A stretch of 35,384 nt of DNA from a virus: positions 1-35,384 of the IMG/VR virus record IMGVR_UViG_3300032893_000195; one strand, 5' to 3'. The notes under the pieces are model-generated. The model did not search any database and was not told the DNA's origin. It saw nothing but the letters and a program-made list of their open reading frames with translations. Numbering within the stretch: position 1 is the first letter of the stretch; every line of letters begins with the position of its first letter. The position numbers and the translations under genes are program-made. This document shows, in pieces, positions 2,781-34,869 of this stretch.

Positions 2781-3101
2781 TTACCGTTTGGTTTTTTCGG
2801 GTGGCTGCTCGAGCTCGCGCAAGGTCGAGGCGAGGGCCTGGGCTTCGTGATAGTCGAGGGGGATTATGTGGGCGAAAACTTTGCCGGCGCCGCGCCATTC
2901 CGTATAGCGCAAAAACATCGTGCCTTCGTGCTTGTGCTCGACTACCTCGAGCATGCGCATGGGCGTGTCGATCACGCGCGTGCAGCGGAAGTGCGCGGAA
3001 AGGATCTCGCTCACGCTGTTATTGCGGCGCTGCAGAGTTTCGAGCGCCTTGGTGGAAATATGCGCATTGCGCTCGAATTCGCGGGGCGAGGGGGCACTCA
3101 T
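2781..3101 (-). CDS. Hypothetical protein
   Basis: The start at 3101 is set by an ATGA overlap with the stop at 3098-3100, giving 106 residues (MSAPSPREFERN...). A helical N-terminal third (STKALETLQRRNNSVSEIL) is followed by an alternating beta-like stretch (RVIDTPMRMLEVVEHKHEGTM) and a helix rich in Ala and Glu near the end. I do not recognise the family. The tight coupling to the secreted protein upstream suggests co-expression rather than a shared function. Confidence 0.6.
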   Translation of the reverse strand: MSAPSPREFERNAHISTKALETLQRRNNSVSEILSAHFRCTRVIDTPMRMLEVVEHKHEGTMFLRYTEWRGAGKVFAHIIPLDYHEAQALASTLRELEQPPEKTKR

Positions 3102-3490
3102 CGGCACACCTCGAGATTGTTAATTGTGCCGTCGACGTGCACCACGGTGATGACTGCCAGCGGGGCGAACCATAAACGGTGCAGAGTGCCGTGCGTGTGC
3201 TTGCGCAACTGATGCGAGGCGAGGGCCGCGGCGAATACTCCGCCGGCCATGGCGGTGACCATCCGCGGCGCGGTGGGCCTGGCGCCGTACAAGTACGGGC
3301 TGCCGCCTTCGGTGGCGCAGTGCTTGCCGCGGCCGACCATGAGCGCGGTGGTGATGGTGTCGGCGGTGGTGGCGGCGACGGCGACGCCGGCCGCGGTCCA
3401 ATATGTGCGATCGGCGACCGGCGCCGATTCCTGACCCCAGCAGAGCGAGGCGCAAGCAAGCAGGATGAGTGCGAAAAAATAAGTTTTCAT
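3098..3490 (-). CDS. Secreted or periplasmic membrane protein with signal peptide
   Basis: The ATG at 3490 is chosen because it overlaps the stop of the upstream gene and starts a good signal peptide (MKTYFFALILLACASLCWG, cleavage before QES). The product is 130 residues. The mature part has two or three moderately hydrophobic stretches (YWTAAGVAVAATTADTITT; MVTAMAGGVFAAALASH; LWFAPLAVITVVHVDG) and two cysteines. Its plan (signal, W-containing linker, hydrophobic segments, late HVDGTINN) loosely resembles the late gene at 22674-23048, so the two may be distant relatives. An inner-membrane or periplasmic location is inferred; function unknown. Confidence 0.6.
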   Translation of the reverse strand: MKTYFFALILLACASLCWGQESAPVADRTYWTAAGVAVAATTADTITTALMVGRGKHCATEGGSPYLYGARPTAPRMVTAMAGGVFAAALASHQLRKHTHGTLHRLWFAPLAVITVVHVDGTINNLEVCR

Positions 3491-15432: not shown

Positions 15433-16203
15433 ATGGTCAACAAACGATTTCAATCGCGTTTCGCGAAGTGCCGCGAAATTACCGAGCGTGAAGTCGGCCG
15501 CCCGAGACTCGAGATGCTCCGCAAAAATCCCATCATCGCAGGGCAACTCGAGTACCTCGTGCAGCCGATTTACGACTTTTACGGCGTGGCAGTTGCCACG
15601 GCCGTGACAAAGCAGAGCACGTTCGCTCAGCCCATCGGCGCCAACTATACGCCGTCCGGCGGAGCGGCGATTGTGAAGTCTCTCTACCACACCAATTTGG
15701 TGCAGCCCGGAATGTTGGATGCACCGAAAAAGATGTTGGTGAAGGGCATCTGCCTCGTGCTGCGGAATGATGTTGCTCCGCAGGATCTCGCGAGTTTCGT
15801 CGGTCAAACACTCCTGCAACTCCAGATCTCCGGTAAAGACTACTGGACCGGTCTAGCGCAGAAGTGCCCGGCGGGTGGCGGGGCTTTCGGCTTCGCAATC
15901 TCGACGCAGACACTCGCGGCCGGTGGAACGATGGCGGTTCTCAATTCGAACGGCTATCCCCACACGCTCAACATCAACACGATCACCGACGATATGCCAC
16001 AGGTGCCCGGACTGCCAGCAATGGATCCGATCCTCGGGCAGCTCATCGAACAGCAGCAGAACTTTTTCGTCACGCTGGATCCGACGATCACAGGCTCGGC
16101 TGCGTTCACGACGCTGGCCGCGGCTCCTGCGACGCAGTTCGTCGGCACGGGCATCAATGCTCACGTGTACCTCGAGGGCGTACTGATGCGGGCGGTGCTG
16201 TAG
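15433..16203 (+). CDS. Candidate major capsid protein (jelly-roll-like)
   Basis: 256 residues with the strongest ribosome-binding site in the late block (GAGAGGAGG before ATG 15433). After a basic N-terminus the protein is mostly beta-like, with no membrane helix: PGMLDAPKKMLVKGICLVLRN, then DLASFVGQTLLQLQISGKDYW, then QQNFFVTLDPTITG, ending AHVYLEGVLMRAVL. From memory this order (TNLxQxGxL, F/M-x-VKxI, QNFxVxL, VxLxGxLxR) recurs in capsid proteins of nontailed phages with jelly-roll folds. Size is close to double-jelly-roll proteins such as PM2 P2 (269 residues). Hairpins follow the gene and may let it be made in excess. It could instead be a large single-barrel protein. Confidence 0.55.
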   Translation: MVNKRFQSRFAKCREITEREVGRPRLEMLRKNPIIAGQLEYLVQPIYDFYGVAVATAVTKQSTFAQPIGANYTPSGGAAIVKSLYHTNLVQPGMLDAPKKMLVKGICLVLRNDVAPQDLASFVGQTLLQLQISGKDYWTGLAQKCPAGGGAFGFAISTQTLAAGGTMAVLNSNGYPHTLNINTITDDMPQVPGLPAMDPILGQLIEQQQNFFVTLDPTITGSAAFTTLAAAPATQFVGTGINAHVYLEGVLMRAVL

Positions 16204-17362: not shown

Positions 17363-17830
17363 ATGGGCTCTACATTGTGCGGGCCACAGCCCGTTAAAAA
17401 ACCGCTATGGATCGATCCTCCGGATCAGTGGGAGAACCTCGATCTCATCAATTACGTCGCGCTGCCTGGCGTCGGTCTCACCGCGAACGTGATCAGCTTT
17501 AAAGTGCCACTTGGGCACAATGGGGTGATCAAAAAAATCGCCAACAATTTTGTGGGCGGGGGGTGGACCGAAGGCTCGGGCGATGTGACTTGGCAGATCC
17601 TCGTCGATGGCGCACCTCCGCCGGGCTCGGTCGGTTACGACAATATCCTCGCTTCGCTCGGCTCGCCGGCGAATCCGGTGGAGATTGCCGGCTTTCGCAT
17701 CTACGAAAATCAGGTGCTCACGCTGGTGGTGCGCAATGCGGCCGTAGTGCTCGCGCAGCAACTCTCGGGCGGGCGGTTCATCGGGTATCTATATCCGCGC
17801 CAAATGGAGGAGGATAACGCATTCCTATGA
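17363..17830 (+). CDS. Beta-barrel-like minor capsid or spike protein
   Basis: 155 residues from ATG 17363, four bases after the previous stop. After an N-terminal arm (KKPLWIDPPDQWENLDL) the protein alternates like a jelly roll: ANVISFKVPLGHNGVIKKI, DVTWQILVDGAPPP, NPVEIAGFRIYENQV, LTLVVRNAAVVL, FIGYLYPRQ. It has no cysteine in the domain and no membrane helix. It is coupled by ATGA to the secreted spike-like protein that follows. A capsid-vertex or spike-base protein is a reasonable guess; other small virion beta proteins are possible. Confidence 0.55.
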   Translation: MGSTLCGPQPVKKPLWIDPPDQWENLDLINYVALPGVGLTANVISFKVPLGHNGVIKKIANNFVGGGWTEGSGDVTWQILVDGAPPPGSVGYDNILASLGSPANPVEIAGFRIYENQVLTLVVRNAAVVLAQQLSGGRFIGYLYPRQMEEDNAFL

Positions 17831-18903
17831 AAGCTCGCCTTGGCATGCTGTCGCTTTTCCTGGCGCTCGGATCGATCGTCGCGCACGCGCAATTTATCGG
17901 GTACACCTCGGCGCAAAGCACGACGTCGACGCCCTACAATAACGTCACGTGCACCGCGGCGCTCACGGCAAGCCCGGTGACAGTGCGGAACATTGGGCAG
18001 GGCGGGCACTGGGCGACACTCACCGGCAATAGCGGCGCCACCACGCTGCTTTACACAATTCAGGGATCTTACGACGGCATCACGTTTTTCGATATCTCCG
18101 ACGTGGGCAGTCTGCCGCCACAGTCAACGGACATTCCGAACATCACGGGCACGGGCTACTATCCGGTCATCGGGGTCAAGGTCGGGGCGTGCACGCCCAG
18201 CAATGCGACGATCACGATCAAGTACGGCGGAATTTCGCTCACTCCTAGTCAGCCGGTTGGATCCGCACAAGGCGGGCAGCTCAATAAGCACCTGGCCTCA
18301 AACCTGGGCGCGGGGGGAGCGTATCAGTCGGGCGCATTACGCACACCGTTTGGCAGTTCGGCCGGCGTGCTCAATTTCATTTTCGGCAGTGGCGCCGGGC
18401 CGACGGGCTCGACGTTAGTGGTCACGTGTCAAACCCTGGGCACGGCGACGGCCGCGCTGCAGACGTTCACGTTTCCACTGCAAACGACAAACTCGCTCGC
18501 GCAAAGCTTTAATGTGCCGCCCGCGGCGTGTCCCTATTTCAACGTGACCTACAACAATGGCGGGGCGAGTGCGAATGTGTTCTCGCTCGATTATGCGTTT
18601 GCTCCGCCCGGCTCCTCGCCTCCGCCGTATGCCTACACGCACATCACGGGCACGAGCGCCACGACAATCAAGGCGACGCAGGGCACCGTGCATACGGTGT
18701 CGATCAATACCGGTGGAGCGGGTACGTTCACGCTCTTTGATTTGCCGGCCGCCAGCTGCACGGGCACGCCGGCGACGAATCAGGTCGCGATTGTCACCTC
18801 TACAGCGGCAACACTGCAGACGTTCACATATGACGCTAATTTTCTGAGCGGGATCTGCGCGAAAGCTTCGGTCGCCATGGATGTTACGGTCTCGAGTCAA
18901 TGA
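17827..18903 (+). CDS. Secreted beta-rich spike-like protein with signal peptide
   Basis: 358 residues. A clear Sec signal peptide (MKARLGMLSLFLALGSIVA, cleavage after AHA before QF) is followed by a Ser/Thr/Gly-rich, beta-dominated protein with about ten scattered Cys (for example NVTCTAAL, KVGACTPS, LVVTCQTL, PAACPYF). Segments such as LLYTIQGSYDGITFFDISD and ATITIKYGGIS resemble domains of phage spike or fibre proteins that begin 'YxxxGSxDGxxW'. It lies in the capsid block and is coupled by ATGA on both sides. The signal peptide implies export, unusual for a virion protein built in the cytoplasm. Confidence 0.6.
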   Translation: MKARLGMLSLFLALGSIVAHAQFIGYTSAQSTTSTPYNNVTCTAALTASPVTVRNIGQGGHWATLTGNSGATTLLYTIQGSYDGITFFDISDVGSLPPQSTDIPNITGTGYYPVIGVKVGACTPSNATITIKYGGISLTPSQPVGSAQGGQLNKHLASNLGAGGAYQSGALRTPFGSSAGVLNFIFGSGAGPTGSTLVVTCQTLGTATAALQTFTFPLQTTNSLAQSFNVPPAACPYFNVTYNNGGASANVFSLDYAFAPPGSSPPPYAYTHITGTSATTIKATQGTVHTVSINTGGAGTFTLFDLPAASCTGTPATNQVAIVTSTAATLQTFTYDANFLSGICAKASVAMDVTVSSQ

Positions 18904-19070
18904 ATGTGATCGTCACCATCTGGCGCGGGGCGGAAAGCGTACTCACGGCGGTGGCGACGGATGGCGAGCTGGTCGCGGATCTGAAACTACTGGCGCAAGC
19001 GAAAGGCTACCGGGTCGAGATCAAAGAGCAGAGTGATGGAGACCGGGGCTATTCGAAAGTGCGCACATGA
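18900..19070 (+). CDS. Small hypothetical protein
   Basis: 56 residues, with an ATGA overlap to the previous stop. It reads as one small alpha/beta unit: a beta strand (MNVIVTIWRGAES), VLTAVATDGELVADL, then a helix-strand pair (KLLAQAKGYRVEIKEQ). The overlap and natural composition support a real gene. No family recognised. Confidence 0.55.
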   Translation: MNVIVTIWRGAESVLTAVATDGELVADLKLLAQAKGYRVEIKEQSDGDRGYSKVRT

Positions 19071-19233
19071 CTTGGTAAATCGTTTTCAGGTGGCGCTTTC
19101 TCTGCTCGAGTCGGAGCGCTGCACGTGCGAGCATCATCGGCGGGCCGAGCGCGAGATCCGATCGACGATTCGACTGGCGCACCATCTGCAGGAGCTCGCG
19201 AAGGTGCTCGAGGAAGGGGGCACAACGAAATGA
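19036..19233 (+). CDS. Small helical cysteine/histidine protein
   Basis: 65 residues from ATG 19036 (a GTG precedes at 19033); it overlaps the previous gene by 35 bp, and a TTG at 19072 is an alternative start. Helical throughout, with a CTCEHH cluster in the middle (ESERCTCEHHRRAEREI) that could bind a metal, and a leucine-rich end (RLAHHLQELAKVLEEG). It has an ATGA overlap with the membrane protein downstream. Function unknown. Confidence 0.5.
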   Translation: METGAIRKCAHDLVNRFQVALSLLESERCTCEHHRRAEREIRSTIRLAHHLQELAKVLEEGGTTK

Positions 19234-19625
19234 TCGCGGCCTTAAATATCGTGATTTTCGGCGTCGGTTGGGTGCTCTACGTGGCGGCGCAAGCACAAAA
19301 CTCCGTCACCTCTAAGTCGAACGGGCTGCCGTCGGGTTGGCCTGGTATTCGCATCTGGCTGCGCGCGCATGCGGTTAACCTGGCGACGCGCGCATTTTTC
19401 TCGGGCCTCGCTTACGGCTTTCTGGTCCACACGTTCGCCGCCAAAGTACAGAGCGCCGGCATGCCGATCAGCTCGCACGCGATCGCCGGCTGCGCCGGCT
19501 ACGCAGCGAATGCTCTGCTCTATCAATTCTTTGGATTATTTCCGGGGTTGCGGGTTGAGGTTTCGGATCTGGCGCCGCCGGCGAGCTCGAATCCCATACC
19601 ACCACCATCGGAGACACGCTCATGA
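19230..19625 (+). CDS. Polytopic membrane protein, holin-like
   Basis: 131 residues from an ATGA-coupled ATG. Three hydrophobic segments are visible: IAALNIVIFGVGWVLYVAA, LATRAFFSGLAYGFLVHTF and IAGCAGYAANALLYQFFGL. A polar Pro/Ser-rich tail follows (DLAPPASSNPIPPPSE). Three helices, small size and a place just before a lipoprotein and a muralytic enzyme make a holin or related lysis membrane protein likely, although no signature proves it. It could instead be a virion membrane protein. Confidence 0.55.
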   Translation: MIAALNIVIFGVGWVLYVAAQAQNSVTSKSNGLPSGWPGIRIWLRAHAVNLATRAFFSGLAYGFLVHTFAAKVQSAGMPISSHAIAGCAGYAANALLYQFFGLFPGLRVEVSDLAPPASSNPIPPPSETRS

Positions 19626-20209
19626 GAAAAACTCGATCGCTTGCGCTGATCCTCTGCGCGCTCACGCTCACCGCGGCATGCATTCACAAAACCGGCGGCG
19701 CGGTCACGCCGTGGGAGCGGGTTCACACGTATAACGCATCACTGGCCGAAACAAATAATGCGATCGAAAAGGGCGCGGAGATCGCAGTTTCGACCGATTT
19801 GCTGCAGCCCGCACAGGCGGCGCCGGTCATCGGGTGGACCGGGCAAGTTGCGACGCTGCATTTACAGGTGACGGCAATCCTGCAGCAAGGGCAAGCGACG
19901 ACGGCCAACATTGCGGGGGTGCGGTCGCTGATCGATCAGATCAAAGCATCGATCGCGACGCTCCCGCCGGCGGCGCTCGGAATTAAAAATCCGAAATCAC
20001 AGCAAACGTTCGAGCAAGACGTGCAAGCGATCGGCACGCTCGCCGACGGGATCCTCGCCGCACTCGAGGCGATCGGCACGGGCTCGGCGAGTCGCTCGAT
20101 CGAAGCTTATCCGCCGCCGATCACGAATCCGGCGACATTGACAGCTAATCCGTTGCCGATCACGAATCCGGCGACGTTGACGGTGCCGCATTCCGGGGGT
20201 GCAAAGTGA
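19622..20209 (+). CDS. Lipoprotein, spanin-like position
   Basis: 195 residues. A lipoprotein signal peptide ends in LTAAC with the lipidated Cys20. The mature part is helical (WERVHTYNASLAETNNAIEKG; VATLHLQVTAILQQG; FEQDVQAIGTLADGILAALEAI), with a C-terminal tail of two 13-residue repeats of the form PPITNPATLTANP. It would be held on the periplasmic face of the inner or outer membrane. In the lysis-like neighbourhood it could be an outer-membrane spanin subunit or an exclusion lipoprotein; the length is large for a spanin. Coupled to both neighbours by ATGA or GTGA. Confidence 0.65.
   Translation: MRKTRSLALILCALTLTAACIHKTGGAVTPWERVHTYNASLAETNNAIEKGAEIAVSTDLLQPAQAAPVIGWTGQVATLHLQVTAILQQGQATTANIAGVRSLIDQIKASIATLPPAALGIKNPKSQQTFEQDVQAIGTLADGILAALEAIGTGSASRSIEAYPPPITNPATLTANPLPITNPATLTVPHSGGAK
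20117..20181 (+). repeat. Two 26-bp direct repeats in the lipoprotein tail
   Basis: Bases 20117-20142 and 20156-20181 differ at one position and lie 39 bp apart (13 codons), encoding the repeated ITNPATLT segment. In-frame duplication by slippage is the simplest origin, so the copy number may differ in relatives. Confidence 0.85.
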
Positions 20210-20442
20210 CGCCACAGTTACTAACGGAAATCGTTTCGCTCATCGTGCAACTCGGTCCGCTGGGCGTCGATCTTTTCGTCAAGCTCGAGGGCTTGCTGAA
20301 TATCGGGCCGGATGAAAAACAAAACATTGCGAATGCGATCGCGGCGTCGAATGCGGCCGATCAGGACACGATCAGCCGGGTCACGGCGTGGATGACGGCG
20401 AACGGGTTCAAGCTGAGTTTCACGCCGGCGCCGAAAAGCTAA
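20206..20442 (+). CDS. Small hypothetical protein
   Basis: 78 residues starting at a GTG that overlaps the previous stop (GTGA). Two helices (LLTEIVSLIVQLGPLGVDLFVKLEGLL; KQNIANAIAASNAADQDTISRV) and a short end. The first helix is amphipathic to hydrophobic and might sit on a membrane. From memory similar short proteins occur near phage lysis genes, with no known role. Confidence 0.55.
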   Translation: MTPQLLTEIVSLIVQLGPLGVDLFVKLEGLLNIGPDEKQNIANAIAASNAADQDTISRVTAWMTANGFKLSFTPAPKS

Positions 20443-20448
20443 AAGCGC

Positions 20449-20634
20449 ATGGCTGGCGGGTGGCAGATTGCGGTATGCGACGTGTGTCGCCTTTTGGACG
20501 GCGATCAGTCGCTAAAACCCTGCTTTTATTGCGGGACGTGCGACGCGCAGATCTGCGAGGAAGATGCGAACCAGTGGGGCCGCCGGGCGCAAGCGGCGGT
20601 GCTACGGCAAGCAGAAAAATTTGGGGTGTACTGA
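20449..20634 (+). CDS. Small zinc-binding protein
   Basis: 61 residues. CDVCRLLDGDQSLKPCFYC followed by GTCDAQICEEDA gives three closely spaced CxxC-type pairs, consistent with a zinc knuckle or RING-like fold. A helical end (GRRAQAAVLRQAEKFG) follows. Short zinc proteins of this sort are common in phage structural regions. The stop overlaps the next start (TGATG). Confidence 0.6.
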   Translation: MAGGWQIAVCDVCRLLDGDQSLKPCFYCGTCDAQICEEDANQWGRRAQAAVLRQAEKFGVY

Positions 20635-20879
20635 TGGCCTACTTGCTCGAGGTGGCGATCGTCGACGGCGGTGATCGTACGATCAAAGTCGTGCACCAAT
20701 TTTACGGACTCACGGAGGCAGAGGTTGCCACGTACAAGCGCGAGCACCTCGGCTCATGTGAATACTTCCGCGCGGCAGAGCGCGAGGGCCGCACTTTCGA
20801 GGAGCTCGAGGAAATCGACGATAGCGAGCTGCCGGATCCCGATGATTACGAATTCGACGAGGAGGAGCTGAGCGGATGA
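20634..20879 (+). CDS. Small protein with acidic tail
   Basis: 81 residues from ATG 20634, overlapping the previous TGA. An N-terminal beta-hairpin-like part (AYLLEVAIVDGGDRTIKVV) and a helix (LTEAEVATYKREHLG) precede a strongly acidic C-terminus (ELEEIDDSELPDPDDYEF, then DEEEL). The acidic tail could mimic DNA or bind a basic virion protein. Coupled by ATGA to the muralytic gene. Confidence 0.55.
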   Translation: MAYLLEVAIVDGGDRTIKVVHQFYGLTEAEVATYKREHLGSCEYFRAAEREGRTFEELEEIDDSELPDPDDYEFDEEELSG

Positions 20880-21409
20880 GTCAAAAATTACAGATTCCGC
20901 AAATTATTGCGCTCGCGCAGCTCGCCGGCTTTTCGGGCGACGATCTGCCTACGGCTGTCGCGGTAGCGCTGGCAGAATCGAGCGGCAATCCGCAAGCTTA
21001 CAATCCGGAGCGCGCGGCCGGCGCGCCGGAAGGGCAGGGAAGCTTCGGGCTCTGGCAGATCTATCTGCATGCGCATCCGGAATTCCGCGGGCAGAATCTT
21101 TTCGATCCGCAAACGAACGCGGCCGCGGCGTATGCGATTTATGCAGCGGCGGGGCACTCGTTTCGACCTTGGTCGACGTTCACCGCGGGGGCTTACCTGG
21201 CGCACCTCGACGACGTTAATGCCGCGCTGGCGTCAAACTCGGCCGATACGACGGCCACAGCGAGCGCCGGCGATAGCGGTGGCGGTGACACGACGGCCGC
21301 GCCGGCCGATTCGAGCACGCCGGGGTGGACACCGGACGGCGGGCAAACGATCGCGCTTCTGCTGGGCGGGGCCTTGGTGTTTGCATTGATTCGCGCGTTT
21401 GCTTCCTAA
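20876..21409 (+). CDS. Lytic transglycosylase/lysozyme-like protein with C-terminal membrane anchor
   Basis: 177 residues. The lysozyme-like (SLT) fold is shown by AVAVALAESSGNP with the likely catalytic Glu34, GQGSFGLWQIYLHAHPEF, and FRPWSTFTAGAYLAHLD. Such enzymes cleave the glycan strands of peptidoglycan. After about residue 110 a Thr/Ala/Asp-rich linker leads to a C-terminal hydrophobic helix (IALLLGGALVFALIRAF), so the enzyme is membrane-tethered like the late proteins at 7985-11758. A virion-associated entry enzyme fits better than a free endolysin, but it could serve both roles; I see no other endolysin. Confidence 0.75.
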   Translation: MSQKLQIPQIIALAQLAGFSGDDLPTAVAVALAESSGNPQAYNPERAAGAPEGQGSFGLWQIYLHAHPEFRGQNLFDPQTNAAAAYAIYAAAGHSFRPWSTFTAGAYLAHLDDVNAALASNSADTTATASAGDSGGGDTTAAPADSSTPGWTPDGGQTIALLLGGALVFALIRAFAS

Positions 21410-21424
21410 AGGCGCGCAAAGAAA

Positions 21425-21467
21425 GCCCGGCTCACCGGGCACGGAGAAAACGCTCCACGAGAGGGCG
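21425..21467 (+). promoter_or_regulatory. Hairpin plus repeated leader (copy 2) before the first fibre gene
   Basis: GCCCGG (21425-21430) pairs with CCGGGC (21435-21440) around CTCA. Bases 21448-21467 then repeat the leader found at 13815-13834 with one mismatch and supply the GAGAGGG ribosome-binding sequence for ATG 21473. There is no U-tract, so the stem is more likely an RNA end-protector or weak terminator than a strong terminator. Confidence 0.5.
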
Positions 21468-21472
21468 GGCTT

Positions 21473-22669
21473 ATGGGTCGGTTCATCAATCTGCGCGAGC
21501 TGCGGATCGCGGTGATTCTTTACGTCGTGCTTCCGACGGCCGCGGCCGCGCAATTTACGACGGTCTCGGGCACCGTCACCGATCCGAATGGGTTGCCTTA
21601 CGCCGGCGGTACCATCTCGGCGACGCTGATCTCGAGCGGCACGCCCACGCTCAGCGGATTACCGTACACACCACCATCGCAGCCAACCGGGCTCAACTCC
21701 GCGGGCAGCTTCACGCTGCAGCTCGGGGATAACACGGTCCTGCAGCCGGGCGGCACGCAATGGAAATTTATTGTTTGCTCGGGAGTGGCCACGGTGCAGC
21801 CCGCGATCGGTAAGGGTCCGATCTGTTTTACGGCGGGGCCGATCACGATCTCGGGATCCTCGCAATCGATCACGGCAACGCTCACCGCGGCCGCTCTCGC
21901 GTTAACTGTGCCAGTCGGCGGCGGCGGCGTGAGCGGGCCCGGATCCTCGACGCTCAACGCTTTTGCTAAGTGGAATAATACCGGCGGCACGGCACTCGCC
22001 AACTCGCTTGCGGTCGACAATGGCACGACGTTGACATATAGCGGTACTGGCGGGCTCTCCGCGGCGAGCCTGGCGAACACACCCACGGGCACGCTCTCGA
22101 TCGGAACCAACATCACGAGCGGGAAAGTGCAGATCGGAAGCTCGAGCGCGGGCAGCACGGTGGCAAGTACGGCCGACATAACCACCATCAACGATCGAGC
22201 CGGGGGCGGATTTTCCGCCGGCAACGGCTCGGGCGGAGTGCAGCTTCAAGACGACACTTTAAGCGCGATCTTGCGGCTCACGGGTGGCGAGTTCACGCTC
22301 ATCAATAGCTCGATTCTCAATATCACCTCGTCGGGCACCGTGCTCGAGACAAACTTTCCGGTGTTTGAAACGGGCTCCTTTGTTTCTGGGAATGGGCCCG
22401 GGGGCACGTTCACGCTGAGCGGCTGCACGCCGTCGGCTCTTGTCGGTGGCAATACGGCGGGGCAGTTCACGAGCGGCACCACGGGCACGTGCAGCACAAC
22501 GATTACCTTCGGTACGAACGTGATCGCGCCGCATGGCTGGAATTGCGCGGTGAGCGATCGCAATACTGCAGCGGTGGGCGTCACTACGGCGTCAAGTACG
22601 ACAACGGCCACGATCAGCGTTCCAACCACGAGCGGGAACACGGTTTCGTTTTCCTGCATGGGGTACTGA
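21473..22669 (+). CDS. Secreted fibre protein (short paralogue)
   Basis: 398 residues. A Sec signal peptide (ELRIAVILYVVLPTAAA, cleavage before QF) is followed by a domain at about 27-157 that is nearly the same as that in the 1260-residue fibre: QFTTVSGTVTDPNGLPYAG, SSGTPTLSGLPYTPPSQP, then FTAGPITISG. This beta domain resembles the carboxypeptidase-regulatory-like domains common in acidobacterial surface proteins. The rest is Gly/Ser/Thr-rich repeat-like beta structure (FAKWNNTGGTALANSL) typical of fibre shafts. It ends in a small head with Cys (WNCAVSDRNTAAVG; SFSCMGY). It probably binds the host surface; the export signal is the unexpected part. Confidence 0.65.
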   Translation: MGRFINLRELRIAVILYVVLPTAAAAQFTTVSGTVTDPNGLPYAGGTISATLISSGTPTLSGLPYTPPSQPTGLNSAGSFTLQLGDNTVLQPGGTQWKFIVCSGVATVQPAIGKGPICFTAGPITISGSSQSITATLTAAALALTVPVGGGGVSGPGSSTLNAFAKWNNTGGTALANSLAVDNGTTLTYSGTGGLSAASLANTPTGTLSIGTNITSGKVQIGSSSAGSTVASTADITTINDRAGGGFSAGNGSGGVQLQDDTLSAILRLTGGEFTLINSSILNITSSGTVLETNFPVFETGSFVSGNGPGGTFTLSGCTPSALVGGNTAGQFTSGTTGTCSTTITFGTNVIAPHGWNCAVSDRNTAAVGVTTASSTTTATISVPTTSGNTVSFSCMGY

Positions 22670-22673
22670 GCGC

Positions 22674-23048
22674 ATGTGGCGATCGCTTGCAATCTTTGCG
22701 CTTTTGAGTGGCTCCGCCTGGGCGCAGCTTCCGGATGCTCCCGAACCGCAAGCGCCGGTGCACTTTTGGACAATCCGCGCGGATTGGCAATCTCCTCCCC
22801 TGCGAAGCAATCGGCAAGTGCTCAAGTCTTGGCAGTTTTGGGCGGTCCATGCGGCGATGTACGGCGCGGCAATCGCAGCTTTTCGAAGCAAGCACGCGGG
22901 CGAAGAAGTGCACTCAGAAGTTCCGGTACTGGTTAGCCTCACGGCTTTGGATTTTCTGACCGATCGATATTTGGGCGAGCCGTACGCGGTCGGGCCGGCG
23001 ATTTATGCCACGGCGCACTATGCGCGCGCGGCGGGGAAGGGACAATAA
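22674..23048 (+). CDS. Small secreted or membrane protein between the fibre genes
   Basis: 124 residues. A signal peptide (MWRSLAIFALLSGSAWA, cleavage before QLPD) is followed by APEPQAPVHFWTIRADW, then moderately hydrophobic segments (WQFWAVHAAMYGAAIAAF; VPVLVSLTALDFLTDRYL). The plan loosely resembles the early protein at 3098-3490. Placed between two fibre genes, it could be a membrane partner or assembly factor for them. No established family. Confidence 0.55.
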   Translation: MWRSLAIFALLSGSAWAQLPDAPEPQAPVHFWTIRADWQSPPLRSNRQVLKSWQFWAVHAAMYGAAIAAFRSKHAGEEVHSEVPVLVSLTALDFLTDRYLGEPYAVGPAIYATAHYARAAGKGQ

Positions 23049-23051
23049 ACG

Positions 23052-26000
23052 ATGCGACGATGCTTTCTGTGGCTCTGTGTGCTCCTCGCGGCATTGCCGG
23101 CCGCGGCGCAGTTTACCTCGGTGACGGGTACGGTCACGGATCCGAACGGCATCCCGTATGCGTACGGCACCATCTCGGCGACGATCATCTCGAGCGGCAC
23201 TCCCACGCTGAACGGTTTTCCCTACACTCCACCATCGCAGCCCGCGGGCTTGAATTCGCTCGGCTCTTTCGTGATGCAGCTCGCCGATAACACGGTGCTG
23301 CAGCCTGGCGGGTCACAATGGAAATTTACGGTTTGCTCGGGCGCGGGCACGGTCAACCCGGCAATCGGCAAGGGCAGTGTGTGCTTTACTGCAGGGCCGA
23401 TCACGATCTCGGGCTTTTCGCAGAGCATTTCGGCGACGCTCAACGCGGCTGCTCTGGCACTGACGGTGCCGATCGGCGGGGGCGGTGGAGTGTCGAGCAT
23501 CACGGGCGACGGCACGCTGATTACTAACAGCTCATCGGTCGGTGCGGTGGTGCTCACGCTCGGCAATGCGCCGGCCACAAGCGTTTGGGGCAATACGGCG
23601 GGCGGATCCGGGGCGCCGGCGTACACCGCAAACCCGGTAGTAAACGGGCTTTCGCTCGCGGGCATTACGGGAGCAACTCAGTGCTTACACGTCAATGCCT
23701 CGGGCCTTGTTAGCGGTACGGGCTCCGATTGCGGCGCCGGCGGGGGAGTCACGGGATCGGGCACACCTGGCCATGTGTCGTATTGGACGGGGGCCACGGC
23801 GCTCGGCGATTCGCCGATCACAACCGATGGAAGCACCTTTGTCACGCTGGGCACGGGTCTCGCTCCGCTCACCATCACCGGCAATGCAGTCTCGGAGCGA
23901 TCGGCGCCGGCCGGCACGTGCGCGGGCACGAATGCAATTCCCGGGCCGACGGTAGGCTGCAGCTCGTTTTTAAGTTTGGATCTGCCGGCAACCTCGAGCG
24001 CAAGCGCTATCACCTCGGGCGTGACAGCCTTACAGAAAAACAATACGGGCACGGCCGTCGCGCTGCAGATGGCGGGTTATTTTAGTTCGCAAAATCAGGG
24101 CGGGGCGATCACAGAATCGCGCGGGCTCTATGCGGAAAGCTATCAGACGACGGGGGCCGCGCCGACGACGAACCGCGGCATTTTTGGCTTCGCGGCCAAT
24201 ACGGGCGGCGGCACCTCTACCACGAATGAGGCGGGCGTTTTTCAGTCGGGGGCAAGTGCGGGCACGAATACAAACGATTACGGAGTGCATATCCTCACGC
24301 CGGTCGCAGGTGGCACACTCACGAATCACGCCGGGCTAAAGATCGAAACGCAGGGCACGGGCACGGCGATCACTACGGGCTCGGATCCGACGGTTTTGGG
24401 CTCGCTCACATCGGGCGGCACGAACTGCGTGCAAGCGAGCAGCACGGGGCAGTTGTCGATCACGGGCTCACCATGTGGCGCCGGCGGTGGGCTGCCATCT
24501 GGGATACAAGCGCAGCCCTTGGTGAACACAACCGGGGCGACTACCTACGCAACGTCGGCGCTCTTTTGGGATGCATCGCAATTTACGGGTGCGACGGCAG
24601 ACGTCAAGCTCAACACCGCGAATGCGTACGCCATCACGAATAACGGGGGCACGATCGACGCGCGAGCGCTGGGCGGGGCGCAGACGATCGCATCGGAAGT
24701 CAGCATTAGCCAATTGCGGCCGCCGGTCCTCACTTCGCCCGCCGGCACCTCGCCTGGTGCCGGCACTTACAAGCTGGTGTACACACTCACGTCGCCGGCG
24801 GCAACCGAAACCTCGGCGTCGATGGAATCGTCGATCACGATCACGGGCGCGCAGTCGATTCAAGTCGCGGCGCCATCATTCCCGGGATCGGCGACAACCT
24901 ATAGCGTTTACATGACGGCCGCGGGCGGCGCGTCGTGGACTGAGGTAAAGTGCGCGGGGGCGACGGGCGTCGCGATCGGCTCGCCGGTCACCATCACGGC
25001 CACGTGCGGCGGCGGTGCCGTCTCGAAAAGTAATAATGGCTTCGGTGTATCGCTGATCCCTCCGAAAACTGGCATTTGGACGGTCACGATCGCCGATTCG
25101 GTTGCAAACACCTCGTGCGGTCTGAAATTTTTCGATAACGCGAGCTATGAAGGGCAGAGCGCCGGCGAGGGGCGATCGTTCTGGCTCACCTCGAATGCGA
25201 GCACTAATGTCGAGGCGCTCGAGTGCACCGATAACAATCCAAAGCAGACGGCAATTTATGTGCGGATCGACGGGATCGCGGCTCGCGGCACGGGCTCGGA
25301 TCACATACAAACGGCAACGTGCCTTTTTCGCAACGTGTTCGACGTCTCGCGCTCTACAAATATGCAGTGCGGTGCGAATCAGGCAGCCTATCCTGTAAGC
25401 AAGTTTTACGGCACGCTTTCGACGGGCACGGGAGCGGCGACGCAGGTCTCGGGCAACTTCGAAGCGAATTCAGTCAGCGAGCCGATGGTCATCGGCACCT
25501 CGGCGTCGGCCACCACGATCGGATGGGATTTTAATAACATCTCTGCGGTGCATCCTGGCAACACTCTTCCTAACATCGAAATTTTGGGCGGGGTGCGCTC
25601 GGTGCATTTTTCCGGCATCACGTACCTCGAGGGCCCATCCGCCGGCGCGTGCGCTTCGCCGATTCAGATCTCTACGCTCGCGAGCATGCCCGGGCCGGTG
25701 GTCTTTGATAACGTGCACCACGGCGCGGGGTGCTCGGGCACGACGTCTTACCTGATTTCTGTGCCGAATGCGTTCACGCTCGGGCAGCTCAATGTGTTGT
25801 CGGTTTTCACGGGCAACTTTACGAACCTTTTCAATTACAACCCTACGAGCTACACCGTCGCCGGCGTGGGCACGGCGACGACGTACCCCAACCTGGTATT
25901 CGATAAAAACAATCCGAGCACCGTGGCCACTGGGCTCAACGTGACGGGCGCCGTCAATTCCGCGACGGGCTTTCAGGTGAATGCGCTCGCTCCGCTGGGG

Positions 26001-26834
26001 GCGGTGCTCTCGGGCAATGGCACGAATGGAGTATTTCAGCAACCGGGCATTGCGGCGTCGACGCCGGCGGGCACCACGGTCACGATCAACGGTGACGGCG
26101 TGAATTCGAATCGCGGCGGTGTGGTCTATATCAACAATTCGTCGACGGTCACGGTCAACATTCAAGGGCCCGCCAACACCGGATTTCAGTCGAATTACTG
26201 GACGACGGTTTGCAACATCAACAGCGGCATGGGCGTGATCACGGTCACGGGCGGCGGTTCGATCGTAAACGGCTACTCTGAAGTGCCTCCCGGGTCGACC
26301 GCGGTACCGAGCTGCGCGAAGATCGTTACTGACGTCGACGGCACCGATTACGACGTGCTGCTGCAGAGCAACAATTATGCCAACCGGCTCACCTCTGACT
26401 ATACGAATGCGACGACGAGCTACACCTCGCTGCTGTCATTTCCGATCGCAGCGAACACAAAAGTCTCATGGCAGTGCGCCGGCGGCTATAAGGTCACGGG
26501 CACGTTTCAAGCGATCTTTGCGGTTAATTTCTCGCAAGCTCCAACGAATGCGGCAATCGCGGGCAACGCAAATACGGGGGACGTCGGCGGGGCAGGGCAT
26601 CAAGAGTCGAATGGGCAAGGGGTCTCAGGGATCACCACGGCATCGGACAATATCGCCACGCAGCCCACGAACACAGCGAGCGCGGCGGGTACGTTTCCTT
26701 TCATCATTTCCGGAGTTGATGAAAATGGAGGCACGGCCGGCGTGATCACGATCGAGGCTAAGAGCAATAACGTTTCCGGCACGGTCACGGTGAAAAAGGA
26801 TAACCTTTGGTGCGTTTGGCAATTTCTAAATTAA
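23052..26834 (+). CDS. Giant secreted fibre protein with beta-helix-like region (long paralogue)
   Basis: 1260 residues, the largest protein here. Signal peptide CFLWLCVLLAALPAAA before QF; a domain at about 21-150 shared with the shorter fibre; a shaft with motifs typical of fibre repeats (GSGTPGHVSYWTGATALGD); and a mid-region at about 510-545 (ADVKLNTANAYAITNNGG, then TIDARALGGAQTI) that looks like the start of a pectate-lyase-type right-handed beta helix. An Ig/FN3-like segment (APSFPGSATTYSVYM) and long Gly/Ser/Thr-rich beta structure follow. The fold suggests a receptor-binding or polysaccharide-degrading fibre. Cysteines are scattered, as in exported proteins. Its 3' end overlaps the esterase start. 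Confidence 0.65.
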   Translation: MRRCFLWLCVLLAALPAAAQFTSVTGTVTDPNGIPYAYGTISATIISSGTPTLNGFPYTPPSQPAGLNSLGSFVMQLADNTVLQPGGSQWKFTVCSGAGTVNPAIGKGSVCFTAGPITISGFSQSISATLNAAALALTVPIGGGGGVSSITGDGTLITNSSSVGAVVLTLGNAPATSVWGNTAGGSGAPAYTANPVVNGLSLAGITGATQCLHVNASGLVSGTGSDCGAGGGVTGSGTPGHVSYWTGATALGDSPITTDGSTFVTLGTGLAPLTITGNAVSERSAPAGTCAGTNAIPGPTVGCSSFLSLDLPATSSASAITSGVTALQKNNTGTAVALQMAGYFSSQNQGGAITESRGLYAESYQTTGAAPTTNRGIFGFAANTGGGTSTTNEAGVFQSGASAGTNTNDYGVHILTPVAGGTLTNHAGLKIETQGTGTAITTGSDPTVLGSLTSGGTNCVQASSTGQLSITGSPCGAGGGLPSGIQAQPLVNTTGATTYATSALFWDASQFTGATADVKLNTANAYAITNNGGTIDARALGGAQTIASEVSISQLRPPVLTSPAGTSPGAGTYKLVYTLTSPAATETSASMESSITITGAQSIQVAAPSFPGSATTYSVYMTAAGGASWTEVKCAGATGVAIGSPVTITATCGGGAVSKSNNGFGVSLIPPKTGIWTVTIADSVANTSCGLKFFDNASYEGQSAGEGRSFWLTSNASTNVEALECTDNNPKQTAIYVRIDGIAARGTGSDHIQTATCLFRNVFDVSRSTNMQCGANQAAYPVSKFYGTLSTGTGAATQVSGNFEANSVSEPMVIGTSASATTIGWDFNNISAVHPGNTLPNIEILGGVRSVHFSGITYLEGPSAGACASPIQISTLASMPGPVVFDNVHHGAGCSGTTSYLISVPNAFTLGQLNVLSVFTGNFTNLFNYNPTSYTVAGVGTATTYPNLVFDKNNPSTVATGLNVTGAVNSATGFQVNALAPLGAVLSGNGTNGVFQQPGIAASTPAGTTVTINGDGVNSNRGGVVYINNSSTVTVNIQGPANTGFQSNYWTTVCNINSGMGVITVTGGGSIVNGYSEVPPGSTAVPSCAKIVTDVDGTDYDVLLQSNNYANRLTSDYTNATTSYTSLLSFPIAANTKVSWQCAGGYKVTGTFQAIFAVNFSQAPTNAAIAGNANTGDVGGAGHQESNGQGVSGITTASDNIATQPTNTASAAGTFPFIISGVDENGGTAGVITIEAKSNNVSGTVTVKKDNLWCVWQFLN

Positions 26835-27934
26835 TTGTGCTGTTCGTGCTGGCTGTCAGCGCTCGGGCATCCACTCTGCCCGGGGGCTGTTCGTTTGGCG
26901 TCGCGTGTGACACTGGCATTTTGTCGGCAACATTCGCCGGCCGCACTCGCTATTTTTACGCTTATTTTCCCGCGGGGCTTTCGAACGGCGTGGCGTATCC
27001 GATGATCACGCACCTGCATGCTGCGTCTTACGTGACGTGCGGAGCGGGCCTCGGGATCGGCGGGGCGAATGGGTGCCCGTCGCCGGGCGAGGATTCAGCG
27101 GGCCCGCTAAAGCAGTTTGCGAACATGAATAACGTCGCGATTCTGTGGGTTCTTTCCACCTGCATGGATACGACGTCAAACGGCGGAGTGCAACCGTTCA
27201 CAGAATGCAGCACTTCCACCACGGGCACCAACGTCGGCGGGTGGGTCTGGGATATTTCGTACTTTTCGAGCTACTACAATTACACGCCGGCGCTGGCGCA
27301 GTCGGATGATCTTGGATGGATCAGCAATCTGATCGCAACTGCAACCGGCACCTGGGGGGCGAATTGTCCCGCTAAGTGCCTGCTCACGGGCCGGTCGACG
27401 GGATCGATCGAGGCGAGCCAATACGGCGCGCAATTCGTGGGCTCGAGTTTGAGCGCGGTTTCTGCGCTTGGCATGTGGGCCGATACGGTCTGCGCGCGAT
27501 CTACCTCGGGCTGCGATGCTTCGCTCGCGGCGATCAGCACCGTGCTCAACGTGTACATCGTCGACGGCGATGCTGATACAACCCAGATTCCATATTGCGG
27601 GGGCTCCACGACGGTTTGGACGGGATTACCGACGATGACCGTGCCGAGCCAAGATGCGGTGTATAGCTACTGGACGGGCGCCAATGGGCTCAAGTGCACC
27701 ACGTTTTCGACGGCGCAAGCGATATGCTCCGCGGGCGTGCCGAATGCGAGTTTTCCCGGGACGGCGCTCGCGACGGGGTGCACCTCGAGCGCGCGCGTGA
27801 TGTTTACGGATTACGTGGGGCACAAGCACACCGATAGCGGGCCAACTTTGCAGACGCTTTGCGGCTTTTGGAATTTCCAATTTCCTACCGTGGCGTGCGT
27901 GCAAGGCAATTACGTGCCGCAAACTTTTTTCTAG
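26807..27934 (+). CDS. Secreted alpha/beta-hydrolase esterase (PHB-depolymerase/feruloyl-esterase-like)
   Basis: 375 residues from TTG 26807 (GTG 26810 is equally good); it overlaps the fibre gene by 28 bp. Signal peptide KLIVLFVLAVSARA. The mature enzyme has the GxSxG nucleophile elbow as GRSTG with Ser197, an acid candidate in YIVDGDADTT (Asp253, 255 or 257) and a late His in GHKHTDSG (His339 or His341): a complete triad in family order. The secreted LpqC/PHB-depolymerase type cleaves esters in polyesters or acetylated polysaccharides. Next to the fibres it may remove O-acetyl groups from a host capsule. Its TAG stop shares the palindrome CTAG with the convergent gene. Confidence 0.65.
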   Translation: MVRLAISKLIVLFVLAVSARASTLPGGCSFGVACDTGILSATFAGRTRYFYAYFPAGLSNGVAYPMITHLHAASYVTCGAGLGIGGANGCPSPGEDSAGPLKQFANMNNVAILWVLSTCMDTTSNGGVQPFTECSTSTTGTNVGGWVWDISYFSSYYNYTPALAQSDDLGWISNLIATATGTWGANCPAKCLLTGRSTGSIEASQYGAQFVGSSLSAVSALGMWADTVCARSTSGCDASLAAISTVLNVYIVDGDADTTQIPYCGGSTTVWTGLPTMTVPSQDAVYSYWTGANGLKCTTFSTAQAICSAGVPNASFPGTALATGCTSSARVMFTDYVGHKHTDSGPTLQTLCGFWNFQFPTVACVQGNYVPQTFF

Positions 27935-28185: not shown

Positions 28186-28488
28186 TCAAAAGTTTGCGCG
28201 ATTAAAATCACTTTCTTTGAAAATCATGGATCCGGCGCCGGTGAGCCCGGGGGAGGTGGTGAATTCGAATCCTCCGGCCTCAATCGCGGCAAGCTTCGCG
28301 CGATACCACTCCACGGCGCGAGCTGCAAAGCGCTCTTTTTCCGCCCACTCTTCGCGCGCATCGATCAGTCGTCGCACTTCGCGAATCACAGCCTCGCGGC
28401 GCTCCTCTTCGTGTCGCTGCTGCGCTGCAGTTACGAGCGCTTTGCCAACTTCTGCATTGTTGTAAGTAAGGGCTACGTCGTTGGTCAT
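28186..28488 (-). CDS. Helical hypothetical protein
   Basis: 100 residues, coupled by ATGA to the ATPase upstream. One long charged helix (HEEERREAVIREVRRLIDA, then EEWAEKERFAARAVEWYR) suggests a coiled coil, followed by a short glycine-containing end (FTTSPGLTGAGSM). Its strict coupling to the ATPase makes it a candidate partner in packaging. No motif recognised. Confidence 0.55.
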   Translation of the reverse strand: MTNDVALTYNNAEVGKALVTAAQQRHEEERREAVIREVRRLIDAREEWAEKERFAARAVEWYRAKLAAIEAGGFEFTTSPGLTGAGSMIFKESDFNRANF

Positions 28489-29549
28489 CCGGTATGCTCC
28501 TCGTCAAACTCTCGCACGATTTCGCGCGCACTGTCTATGGTTTCCTCGCCGCGGGCGATGGCCTCGGCGTGCAACGCGCTGCGCATCCATGCCGGCCAAC
28601 AATAGCAGCGATACATTTCCTCATCAAAACACACGATAAACTCGCCGCGGCCTAGGGTCTGGATCTCGGCTCGCGTCGGCCGCGGGTACATGCTTTCCGG
28701 AATGGCGTCGAGGGTTTTCTCGATTTCCGCTTTGAGTCGCTGCACGCCGAAAAGCCACACTCGAATCTGGCTCAGCAGTGTGGCACTGATGCCGGAAAGG
28801 TTTTGAGAATCAATCCACAGAAAATTTTCGAGCGCCGCTCCCTGGCGGATGAATTCTTCCGCGGCGTCGCGCACGGGCGAGCGGCGCGCGGCCGGCGCAA
28901 ACTTCCACGCTTCCGGCATGGTCACGATCGTTTTTTTACCGTGCAGGTGTACCCAGCGGATCACCGATCGCACGATCAGGCTTTGGATGTGGAATTCGTA
29001 GCGCTCCAAGTCGATCACGTTCAGCCCGGGCTCGAGCTCCGGCGCGCGGGATTTGCCTTTCAGTTTTCCGAGCTCTTCGATCGTAATGGCGAGATCGTCT
29101 TGGATCTCACCGAAAATGAGCTCGCGCTGTCCGGTGGCTTTCGAAAGTGCGGTTTTTACGTTGCGCTGCACGTCCTCGAGCGTGCGGGGCTGGGCCCACT
29201 CGGCGAACATCTTGCCGCCCGGCCGGCCGCTCTGCCCGGCACGGCACACCGATCGCAAGCACTGCCTTTGAAACTTATCGTACTTTTCTTCGGTGAGCGC
29301 TTCGCAGAGGGCTTTGATCGAGCGCCAATCGACGGTTTCCTCGAAATAGGGCGGGATCTCCCGGGCGAAGCGGAAAGAACCCTCGCCGCGCTTCGTGAGG
29401 AACGCGATCGTTTTGGAGTCGGCGCGCGTGGCGCAAGCTTCGAGGGCGGTGGTTTTGCCGGCGCGCTGCGTCTGCCCTACGATCACCATGTGTCCGACGG
29501 GGATGTACACCGGGGCGCCGGATCCGAGCTCGTAACCTAGGTGGATCAC
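28485..29549 (-). CDS. HerA/FtsK-type ATPase, candidate genome-packaging motor
   Basis: The GTG at 29549 is chosen for its GTGA overlap with the methyltransferase stop, giving 354 residues. P-loop GQTQRAGKTT (25-34) with Lys32; a Walker B-like strand TIVTMPEAW (207-215) with Glu213 and Pro where Asp is usual; then a helix and WIDSQN (245-250) with the sensor Gln seen in HerA and FtsK motors. A conserved FLTKRGEGSF follows the P-loop. Hexameric motors of this superfamily pump DNA, and in PRD1/PM2-type viruses they package the genome. I recall a family of viral ATPases with this same GQTQxxGKTT and PEAW. It lies at the end of the early operon, with no terminase anywhere. Confidence 0.75.
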   Translation of the reverse strand: MIHLGYELGSGAPVYIPVGHMVIVGQTQRAGKTTALEACATRADSKTIAFLTKRGEGSFRFAREIPPYFEETVDWRSIKALCEALTEEKYDKFQRQCLRSVCRAGQSGRPGGKMFAEWAQPRTLEDVQRNVKTALSKATGQRELIFGEIQDDLAITIEELGKLKGKSRAPELEPGLNVIDLERYEFHIQSLIVRSVIRWVHLHGKKTIVTMPEAWKFAPAARRSPVRDAAEEFIRQGAALENFLWIDSQNLSGISATLLSQIRVWLFGVQRLKAEIEKTLDAIPESMYPRPTRAEIQTLGRGEFIVCFDEEMYRCYCWPAWMRSALHAEAIARGEETIDSAREIVREFDEEHTG

Positions 29550-33162: not shown

Positions 33163-33341
33163 GCGGTGAGATCCTCCCGGCGATACTCGCGAGTCTGGGC
33201 AAGCTTGCGCACGTCCTGCTCGGCGCGGATCTCGGCCACGTCGCGCGTTAGATTGCCTTGAAATTCCATGATGGCGGCGCGCTCTTCGAAGAGCTCGAGC
33301 CATTCGCGCGGCCATCGGTCTCGACGGATTGGGAGATTCAT
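33159..33341 (-). CDS. Small charged helical protein
   Basis: 60 residues coupled by ATGA on both sides. One basic-acidic helical run (WPREWLELFEERAAIMEFQ; VAEIRAEQDVRKLAQTREY). No motif. Possibly a partner of the J-domain protein to which it is coupled. Confidence 0.5.
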   Translation of the reverse strand: MNLPIRRDRWPREWLELFEERAAIMEFQGNLTRDVAEIRAEQDVRKLAQTREYRREDLTA

Positions 33342-33952
33342 GCGCTCAGCTCCATGCGGGCCGCATCGCGGGCCGCGGTGATCTGCTCGAATTTCTCGCG
33401 GTCTCCGCCCTGGTCGGGGTGGTGCACTTTGGCGAGATTACGGAAACGGGATTCGACGAGCTCGAGCGTGGGCGTGCCGTCAATGCCGAGCACTTCGCGC
33501 CACGATTGCGAAGCTTTTTCGGGCAGGGCAGCAAACCCTAGGAATGCGCGATCGAGAATCTGCGCACCTCCGTGCCGCTCGATTGCGCGCATGGCCTCGA
33601 GCGTCGCGGCGATCGCGGCGAGATTGTCGGCCACGCGGTTATAGCGGTCGATCGCCATGCATCGAAGTGGCTGGCCTTCTTTCCAATTGCGGTGACGCCA
33701 ATAGACGGCGGCGCCGGGATCCGCCGGCTCTTTGTCGCTGCGTGGCAATCCGTCGAGGCGGAGCGGCACATTTGTCGAGATGATCACCTCCCAGTCGTGC
33801 ACGCCCATGAGCTCGAGCTCGCGCAGCAAGCGCTGCACCGCATCGTGCACTGAGAGGCGGGTGCCATAGGTTTTGAAATGCGCAGAGGCGCGCGAGGTAC
33901 TGCGCTTCCATCCTGCTGGCCACGACAGCGGGTAAGCTTTACGCTCGGTCAT
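33338..33952 (-). CDS. J-domain (DnaJ-like) phage protein
   Basis: 204 residues from ATG 33952 (ATGA overlap). The C-terminal 60 residues are a J domain: SWREVLGIDGTPTLELVE, then FRNLAKVHHPDQGG with the essential HPD tripeptide. The N-terminal part (YPLSWPAGWKRSTSR; VIISTNVPLRLDGLPRSD; PGAAVYWRH; AFLGFAALPEKA) matches a fusion I recall from phage early regions. J domains stimulate Hsp70/DnaK ATPase, so the protein may recruit host DnaK to a viral replication or assembly complex. The fused domain has no known activity. Confidence 0.8.
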   Translation of the reverse strand: MTERKAYPLSWPAGWKRSTSRASAHFKTYGTRLSVHDAVQRLLRELELMGVHDWEVIISTNVPLRLDGLPRSDKEPADPGAAVYWRHRNWKEGQPLRCMAIDRYNRVADNLAAIAATLEAMRAIERHGGAQILDRAFLGFAALPEKASQSWREVLGIDGTPTLELVESRFRNLAKVHHPDQGGDREKFEQITAARDAARMELSA

Positions 33953-34869
33953 GCCGGCACCTCGAGGGCAGGGAATTCGCGCACGCGCAGGTGCGCGGGC
34001 CATTCGGCCGGATCTCCGCCTTTGCGATCTTTGGGTTTGTGGTGTCCGCAAAAATGCGTGCTTTGGTCCGCGCAATCCTGACAGAATGAATTGCTGCCGA
34101 GCTGCTTCATAAAGAACGGCACGCCGGCTCTCCGGCACTGAGCGAGCAAACTTTCCGCCCACGCGAGATTAAACGGCCGCGCGCCTGGTCCGGATTCACC
34201 GCCACAGATGACCCAATCGACGCCGGAAATCGCTTCGTAATGTCCGAACGGAACGCGGCTCGCGAGTGCGTTATAGCGATAGCCTCCGCCTCCGTCGAGC
34301 GAAATCAAGTTAATGTTTTCTAGTTGTGGCTCGACGCTCAGGAAGCCCACGGCGTAGCGTGTTCGCAGTAATTGCGTAATGCGCTCCTCGGCGCGAGGCT
34401 GATTTTCGACGGATACCCCAAACCACATATGCTGGCCGAATTCCACACCCCAATGCGCTTGCGCATTGTTCACGATCACGCGCATGCGCTCGGCGCGCTT
34501 AGTGAGGAATTGAAACGTGTGCCGCGGTGTTTTCATGGCGACGCGCAGCACCTCGGCAATGAATCCGACCGGGATCTGCTCGTGAAAGAGATCGAACATA
34601 TCGCCGACAAAGATCCGCGAGGGCTTTTTGAGGTTCACGGGCTCGGCGAGGATCCGATCGTCAAGGAAAAATTCGTGCAGCTCGAGATTCGGCACGGTGT
34701 ACTCGAGCCCAGTGCCGAACCGCTTGTTAATGGTCGACGCATAGCAGTGCGTGCAACCCGGCGAGATCCGCGTGCAGAACGTGCCGGAGCGCCGGCCGGG
34801 CTGCCCGATGCGTCGGGCCCGGACGGGGTTCCAAGTGTAGTCACACCATTCAATTGTGGTTTTGTTCAT
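33949..34869 (-). CDS. Gp37/Gp68-like protein (DUF5131, radical-SAM-like)
   Basis: 306 residues from ATG 34869; upstream extension is unneeded. The family marks are WCDYTWNPV near the start, a Cys cluster at 32, 39 and 42 (C-x6-C-x2-CYA), FVGDMFDLFHE, FQFLTKRAERM, WFGVSVENQ, LSVEPQLENI and WVICGGESGPGARPF. These proteins, common in mycobacteriophages and others, look like iron-sulfur radical-SAM enzymes but have no proven substrate. Its coupling to the split methyltransferase gene and the nearby Mom-like gene suggests DNA modification. A C-terminal CQDCADQSTHFCGHH may be a second metal site. Confidence 0.85.
   Translation of the reverse strand: MNKTTIEWCDYTWNPVRARRIGQPGRRSGTFCTRISPGCTHCYASTINKRFGTGLEYTVPNLELHEFFLDDRILAEPVNLKKPSRIFVGDMFDLFHEQIPVGFIAEVLRVAMKTPRHTFQFLTKRAERMRVIVNNAQAHWGVEFGQHMWFGVSVENQPRAEERITQLLRTRYAVGFLSVEPQLENINLISLDGGGGYRYNALASRVPFGHYEAISGVDWVICGGESGPGARPFNLAWAESLLAQCRRAGVPFFMKQLGSNSFCQDCADQSTHFCGHHKPKDRKGGDPAEWPAHLRVREFPALEVPA

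Follow-up and report, generated by a model that had tools for sequence, protein, structure and literature searches.

Late genes of the window and its relatives

The window, by which we mean the whole stretch of DNA analyzed here, is virus record IMGVR_UViG_3300032893_000195 (35,384 bases). Its two ends have an exact 127-base repeat in common, as do those of several relatives; this is consistent with a circular molecule that the assembler cut open. The features considered are the following, with export as predicted, arrows at putative cleavage sites, and genes named below by their first position.

15433..16203 (+): late protein with the highest conservation in the virus family, candidate major capsid protein, without signal peptide
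17363..17830 (+): conserved capsid-module protein, overlapping 17827 by 4 nt
17827..18903 (+): exported protein with beta-sandwich domains, predicted to begin with QFIGY after cleavage, candidate base of a vertex or spike
17827..17889 (+): its signal peptide, 21 residues, AHA↓QF
21473..22669 (+): exported fiber with conserved N-domain QFTTVSGTVTDPNG
21473..21550 (+): its signal peptide, 26 residues, up to AAAA↓QF
22674..23048 (+): small protein, signal peptide AWA↓Q, further hydrophobic stretches, weak gene
23052..26834 (+): exported fiber of 1260 residues with 20 Cys, N-domain paralogue of 21473
23052..23108 (+): its signal peptide, 19 residues, AAA↓QF
26807..27934 (+): exported hydrolase-like protein with GxSxG and 16 Cys, accessory
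28485..29549 (-): P-loop ATPase, packaging candidate, kept in 12 of the first 13 relatives

Scans with the conserved 15433 protein matched 16 further IMG/VR contigs, several of them fragmentary; three distant relatives (G021, G024 and G026) emerged from a profile search. The late gene order is common to the window and these relatives. The AF2 model of the 15433 protein (pLDDT 37) was too poor for a fold search; in contig G014 (L097), the homologue of this capsid candidate contains one in-frame TGA. No confident PHROGs match to terminase, portal or tail genes was obtained among the 20 window proteins scanned. The conserved ATPase family, with its Walker A-like GQTQRAGKTT, reached a PHROGs terminase family at E 0.027 only, and its best PDB profile match, to a HerA-like DUF87 protein, was weak (E 0.08). 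The virus family of the window looks tailless.

Several single-pass membrane proteins are also encoded in the window, along with a gene of the lysozyme family and a group of genes resembling a lysis cassette. This group (19230-20442, +), a possible lysis cassette, consists of consecutive genes for a membrane protein, for a lipoprotein (LTAAC↓IHK) and for a conserved protein of small size. Between 8198 and 11758 (+) lie five adjacent proteins, each with one C-terminal hydrophobic segment that is mostly followed by a basic tail. Proteins 9685 and 10563 contain 12 and 8 Cys, respectively, the latter in CLDQNQN..CS.P.CTYGDC repeats. In the early gene block, a small protein (3098-3490, -) with the signal peptide ASLCWG↓QES has homologues at 30-35% identity in three relatives. 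Contig G001 contains two low-complexity, A/G/E-rich open reading frames (33331-33561 and 34444-34716) with the common start MEIFNFLFRKA.

Five proteins carry predicted Sec signal peptides

All five genes for which a preliminary description had proposed good signal peptides (17827, 21473, 22674, 23052 and 26807) are present as open reading frames at these positions. To score their N-termini we used a custom scorer that looks for a positive n-region, an uncharged hydrophobic core and an AxA-like site; it gave 6.8-10.8 for eight known E. coli signal peptides, while shuffled N-termini reached at least 8.5 in 0.78% of cases. All five proteins scored between 9.3 and 10.8: 17827 at 9.8 (SIVAHA↓QFIGY), 21473 at 10.8 (TAAAA↓QFTTV), 22674 at 9.3 (GSAWA↓QLPDA), 23052 at 10.6 (LPAAA↓QFTSV) and 26807 at 10.3 (VSARA↓STLPG). 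By the same scorer they have the positive n-region, the hydrophobic h-region and the small residues at -3 and -1 of Sec/signal peptidase I substrates. An A-x-A before Q, described earlier for most of them, is found in four, the exception being 26807 with S at +1. None of the five has the lipobox Cys at +1 of a signal peptidase II lipoprotein, whereas the neighboring 19622 does. Signal-anchor (SAR) endolysins were also considered and set aside, as no muralytic domain was found in the five and the A-x-A sites are clear. Across 14 genomes, 56 of 510 genes scored at least 8.5, against 4 expected.

Two of the five genes stand apart. The weakest, 22674, was skipped by the gene caller, and tblastn found no homologue of it in the relatives. 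Gene 26807, likewise absent from the relatives by tblastn, begins with TTG inside the end of fiber gene 23052, which it overlaps, and its product had no sequence match in Pfam, NCBIfam or PDB. The name esterase that it had been given has a GxSxG motif (GRSTG, residue 195) behind it, and this motif is its sole basis.

The cleavage site and mature N-terminus are conserved in two families

Comparison with related contigs, as the preliminary description had proposed, revealed two families in which the cleavage site and the mature N-terminus are conserved. Homologues of 17827 occur in nearly all relatives; in their alignment the hydrophobic part varies while Q22, F23 and G25 of the mature protein are invariant, Q at +1 and F at +2 being found in 11 of 11. 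An AF2 model of 17827 (pLDDT 66) consists of a signal helix followed by beta-sandwich domains. Compared with jelly rolls, the first of these domains came closest to XepA (Z 10.5) and YomS (Z 9.7) of Bacillus subtilis prophages (6i56 and 6i5o are listed for XepA/YomS), which have a similar jelly-roll fold, with no sequence relation to 17827 shown. Only these two stand out; the STIV turret protein (Z 7.0-7.3) was not outstanding, and Foldseek matches, with low TM-scores of about 0.2-0.3, were not used. XepA and YomS form pentamers, and XepA is found outside the cytoplasmic membrane and is reported to be absent from mature particles (PMC6834076). The modeled jelly-roll likeness would fit a vertex base and a nonvirion role equally well.

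The second family consists of 21473, 23052 and one or two genes in each relative. A hydrophobic N-terminus ending in A or G and followed by Q is present in 23 of its 24 members. The signal peptides show 28% identity, versus 55% for the mature part. A drifting signal before a constrained mature part is the pattern of a cleaved signal preceding a constrained N-terminus. Proteins 21473 and 23052 and their relatives are of the fiber type, in that the N-terminal anchor is conserved and the C-terminus variable; this layout, at one or two copies per genome, is as expected for anchored receptor-binding proteins. The N-domain also resembles, weakly and below the cutoff, the carboxypeptidase-regulatory domain of bacterial exoproteins. 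At the other end, a CNGT(N/T)W tip motif in exported fibers (G001 gene 34, G028 gene 1 and gp12 of the cultured phages Tunturi_1 and Tunturi_2) is common to tailless, tailed and Tunturi proteins.

A scan with the fiber N-domain yielded 33 viral loci, most of them with a signal peptide and four (three sequences) clearly without. Loss of the hydrophobic N-terminus in homologues, named earlier as the observation that would speak against export, is therefore not the general pattern, but signal-less variants do occur in G013, G029 and G030/G031. In the G013 fiber (L047:18207-18659, -), which has 0 Cys, the initiating M directly precedes the mature domain, and just upstream no frame encodes a signal peptide; the adjoining 17827 homologue has retained its own. 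The other signal-less versions are G029 gene 54, with 0 Cys, and the G030/G031 fiber, with 16. Such natural variants indicate that the N-domain can do without export. A strict coupling of signal peptide and cysteines was rejected, since G013 and G029 fit it but G030/G031 keeps its 16 Cys.

The same signals occur in tailed phages

The fiber N-domain is also present on contigs G027 to G031, of which PHROG matches to terminase, portal or head proteins identify G027, G028, G029 and G030 as tailed phages. It is preceded by a signal peptide in G027 and G028 and lacks one in G029 and G030/G031, although G029 and G030 encode other proteins with signal peptides. Tunturi_1 and Tunturi_2 are cultured podoviruses of Tunturiibacter, Acidobacteriota, and the paper describing them leaves signal peptides unmentioned (PMC11924767). 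We found signal peptides in gp12, gp13 (by eye), gp14 and gp17 of both phages, and in gp113 and gp114 of the siphovirus Tunturi_4. As in the window, these are large spike, fiber or structural proteins with many, mostly even numbers of cysteines; unlike the window virus, all three phages are tailed Caudoviricetes with terminase and portal genes. The notion of a feature of tailless viruses only was dropped, since tailed contigs and Tunturi phages have it too.

The signal peptide of gp114 directly precedes a domain that starts at residue 486 of Tunturi_2 gp17, indicating that the same domain acquired a signal peptide in two different layouts. Both proteins contain a choice-of-anchor Q domain, which is also found in bacterial exoproteins, and gp14 shows a likeness to pectate lyases. 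Tunturi gp17 and an exported protein of relative G002 also have a domain in common (40% over 119 aa), a hint of related hosts, and we tentatively infer an Acidobacteriota host for the window virus. A search for prophage relatives, with the capsid candidate and the fiber N-domain as queries, found none in two genome-collection scans, and named phage records contained no relatives of 23052, the 28485 ATPase or 26807.

Among T7, P22, lambda, N4, PRD1, PM2, FLiP, P23-77 and Tunturi_3, the custom scorer flagged no spike or fiber. What it flagged were membrane proteins, spanins, endolysins, a transglycosylase and the outer-membrane protein Lom; the one flagged protein of Tunturi_3 is small and lies outside the structural module.

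Proteins with predicted export mostly have even numbers of cysteines

In disulfide-forming bacteria, exported proteins tend toward even Cys numbers (PMC7678975, pointing to earlier work). We counted cysteines in exported proteins whose mature form has at least 200 residues, after removal of near-duplicates, lipoproteins and truncated genes. In the virus family the ratio of even to odd was 36:2 (p = 2.7e-9), compared with 64:76 in nonexported proteins (Fisher 7e-9); the tested sequences are related to each other, so these p-values are guides. The ratio remained 25:2 without the 17827 family, and among nonexported proteins with at least 4 Cys it was 42:34. For exported proteins without either conserved N-domain (6:2) and for the tailed contigs alone (8:3), the bias was not significant. 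An even-Cys bias is a mark of disulfide-bonded exported proteins and lends indirect support to the predicted transport and cleavage. Taken with the fixed cleavage site and mature N-terminus, it makes export look real, and on these sequence grounds we regard the predicted export of the adhesion proteins as well supported.

Discussion

Phage fibers and receptor-binding proteins are generally assumed to fold and assemble in the reducing cytoplasm. Among the coat and adsorption proteins of filamentous phages (pIII, pVIII), the adsorption protein is exported by Sec and has its signal cleaved. These proteins differ from those of the window in being membrane anchored and assembled by extrusion, and they are unrelated to them. 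The lambda protein Lom has a signal peptide, flagged by our scorer, and a gene adjoining the fiber genes, but it is a single outer-membrane protein of the host cell and not a fiber. Other late phage proteins likewise use host Sec, among them fOg44 Lys44, the SAR endolysins and spanins (PMC6116005), but these are lysis enzymes or spanins rather than adhesins. Searches of the open-access literature yielded neither an account of tail fibers with signal peptides nor a paper on virions assembled with exported, externally folded adhesion proteins.

The reading that we favor, as slightly more likely than not, has the adhesion proteins secreted and cleaved, folding oxidatively once outside the cytoplasm and attaching to virions when the cell lyses. 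The products of the late spike and fiber module would be exported from the cytoplasm by the Sec system of the host, and signal peptidase I would remove the signal and expose the fixed mature N-terminus (QF...). Folding would follow in an oxidizing compartment, where paired cysteines could form disulfides. At cell lysis, the exported proteins would meet particles made in the cytoplasm and dock by the conserved N-terminal domain, leaving the variable C-terminal part to recognize the host surface. For secretion, cleavage and oxidative folding, with the actual cleavage and disulfides predicted, the support comes from sequence: the signal peptides and their conservation, the even-Cys signature, the modular layout and the occurrence in unrelated virion types. 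That the proteins are part of the virion, and dock when the cell lyses or later, we infer from the layout of anchor plus variable tip, the C-terminal tip motif, the overlap with a capsid-module gene and the absence of other evident candidates for receptor binding. In the window and in Tunturi_1 and Tunturi_2, the large fiber and spike candidates all carry signal peptides; if they were not virion parts, the obvious receptor-binding proteins would be missing. Against this reading we count the natural signal-less variants and the choice-of-anchor Q domain of gp17 and gp114; the latter would also suit surface display. Whether such two-compartment assembly, with cytoplasmic heads and tails and external, disulfide-bonded receptor-binding proteins joined at lysis, extends to several unrelated lytic phages of Acidobacteriota and similar soil bacteria is more tentative, and we put its chances slightly short of even.

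The main rival, somewhat unlikely in our view but a serious one, keeps export and denies the virion: the proteins would be polysaccharide-active enzymes, decoys, adhesins or exclusion factors, released or displayed to aid release and spread or to keep other phages out. The GxSxG motif of 26807, the pectate-lyase likeness of gp14 and the exoprotein domain of gp17 and gp114 would all suit such a role. Lom provides a precedent for a phage-exported surface protein encoded beside fiber genes, and XepA, whose fold comes nearest to that of the first 17827 domain, is found outside the membrane and not in mature particles. What such a role leaves unexplained is the modular anchor and variable tip in two or more copies per genome, the adjoining capsid genes, the fiber-tip motif and the want of any other receptor-binding candidate in these genomes. 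Alternatively, the signal peptides could be poorly working leftovers of captured host exoprotein domains, with the virion copies made in the cytoplasm, as the weak carboxypeptidase-regulatory likeness and the signal-less variants might suggest. We consider this improbable, because signal and fixed cleavage site are kept in two unrelated families and in diverged relatives, the signal precedes one and the same domain in different layouts, and it is accompanied by even Cys numbers.

The preliminary description had connected the signal peptides with the membrane-anchored proteins and seen in them a hint of an unusual exit or assembly route. Its case for export held up, through the cleavage site, the mature N-terminus and the Cys bias; the link to an unusual exit did not, as signals of the same kind are found in ordinary tailed phages, cultured podoviruses and a siphovirus among them. 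Exit by budding or extrusion, with exported spikes acquired on the way out, would make sense of one genome holding both membrane-anchored proteins and exported spikes. The lysozyme-family gene and lysis-cassette-like group, mature spikes that by eye lack a C-terminal anchor, and the same feature in phages with conventional tails and lysis genes render it quite improbable. Even less probable, we think, are uncleaved anchors holding spikes in the internal or outer membrane of a tailless membrane phage. The several single-pass membrane proteins of the window would be in keeping with such a virion, but the conserved A-x-A↓Q site and the same signals in membrane-free tailed phages are not; moreover, PRD1, PM2, FLiP and P23-77, also tailless icosahedral phages with spike proteins, have spike and capsid proteins without signal peptides. 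The data can be explained without an unusual exit route, and external assembly, display on the cell and release as free enzymes, the options originally listed, are still the right ones.

A group of soil bacterial viruses thus appears to send its host-recognition fibers out through the export channel of the host, and probably to harden them with disulfides. If this is true, the Sec and disulfide machinery of the host would be part of the virion assembly line, and phage adhesins may be carried or released by infected cells before lysis. Such proteins would then have to be produced and modeled in their processed, oxidized form. A signal peptide together with even cysteines would offer a simple annotation mark for receptor-binding proteins of soil phages that belong to no known family, and since cultured phages have the feature, the question is directly testable.
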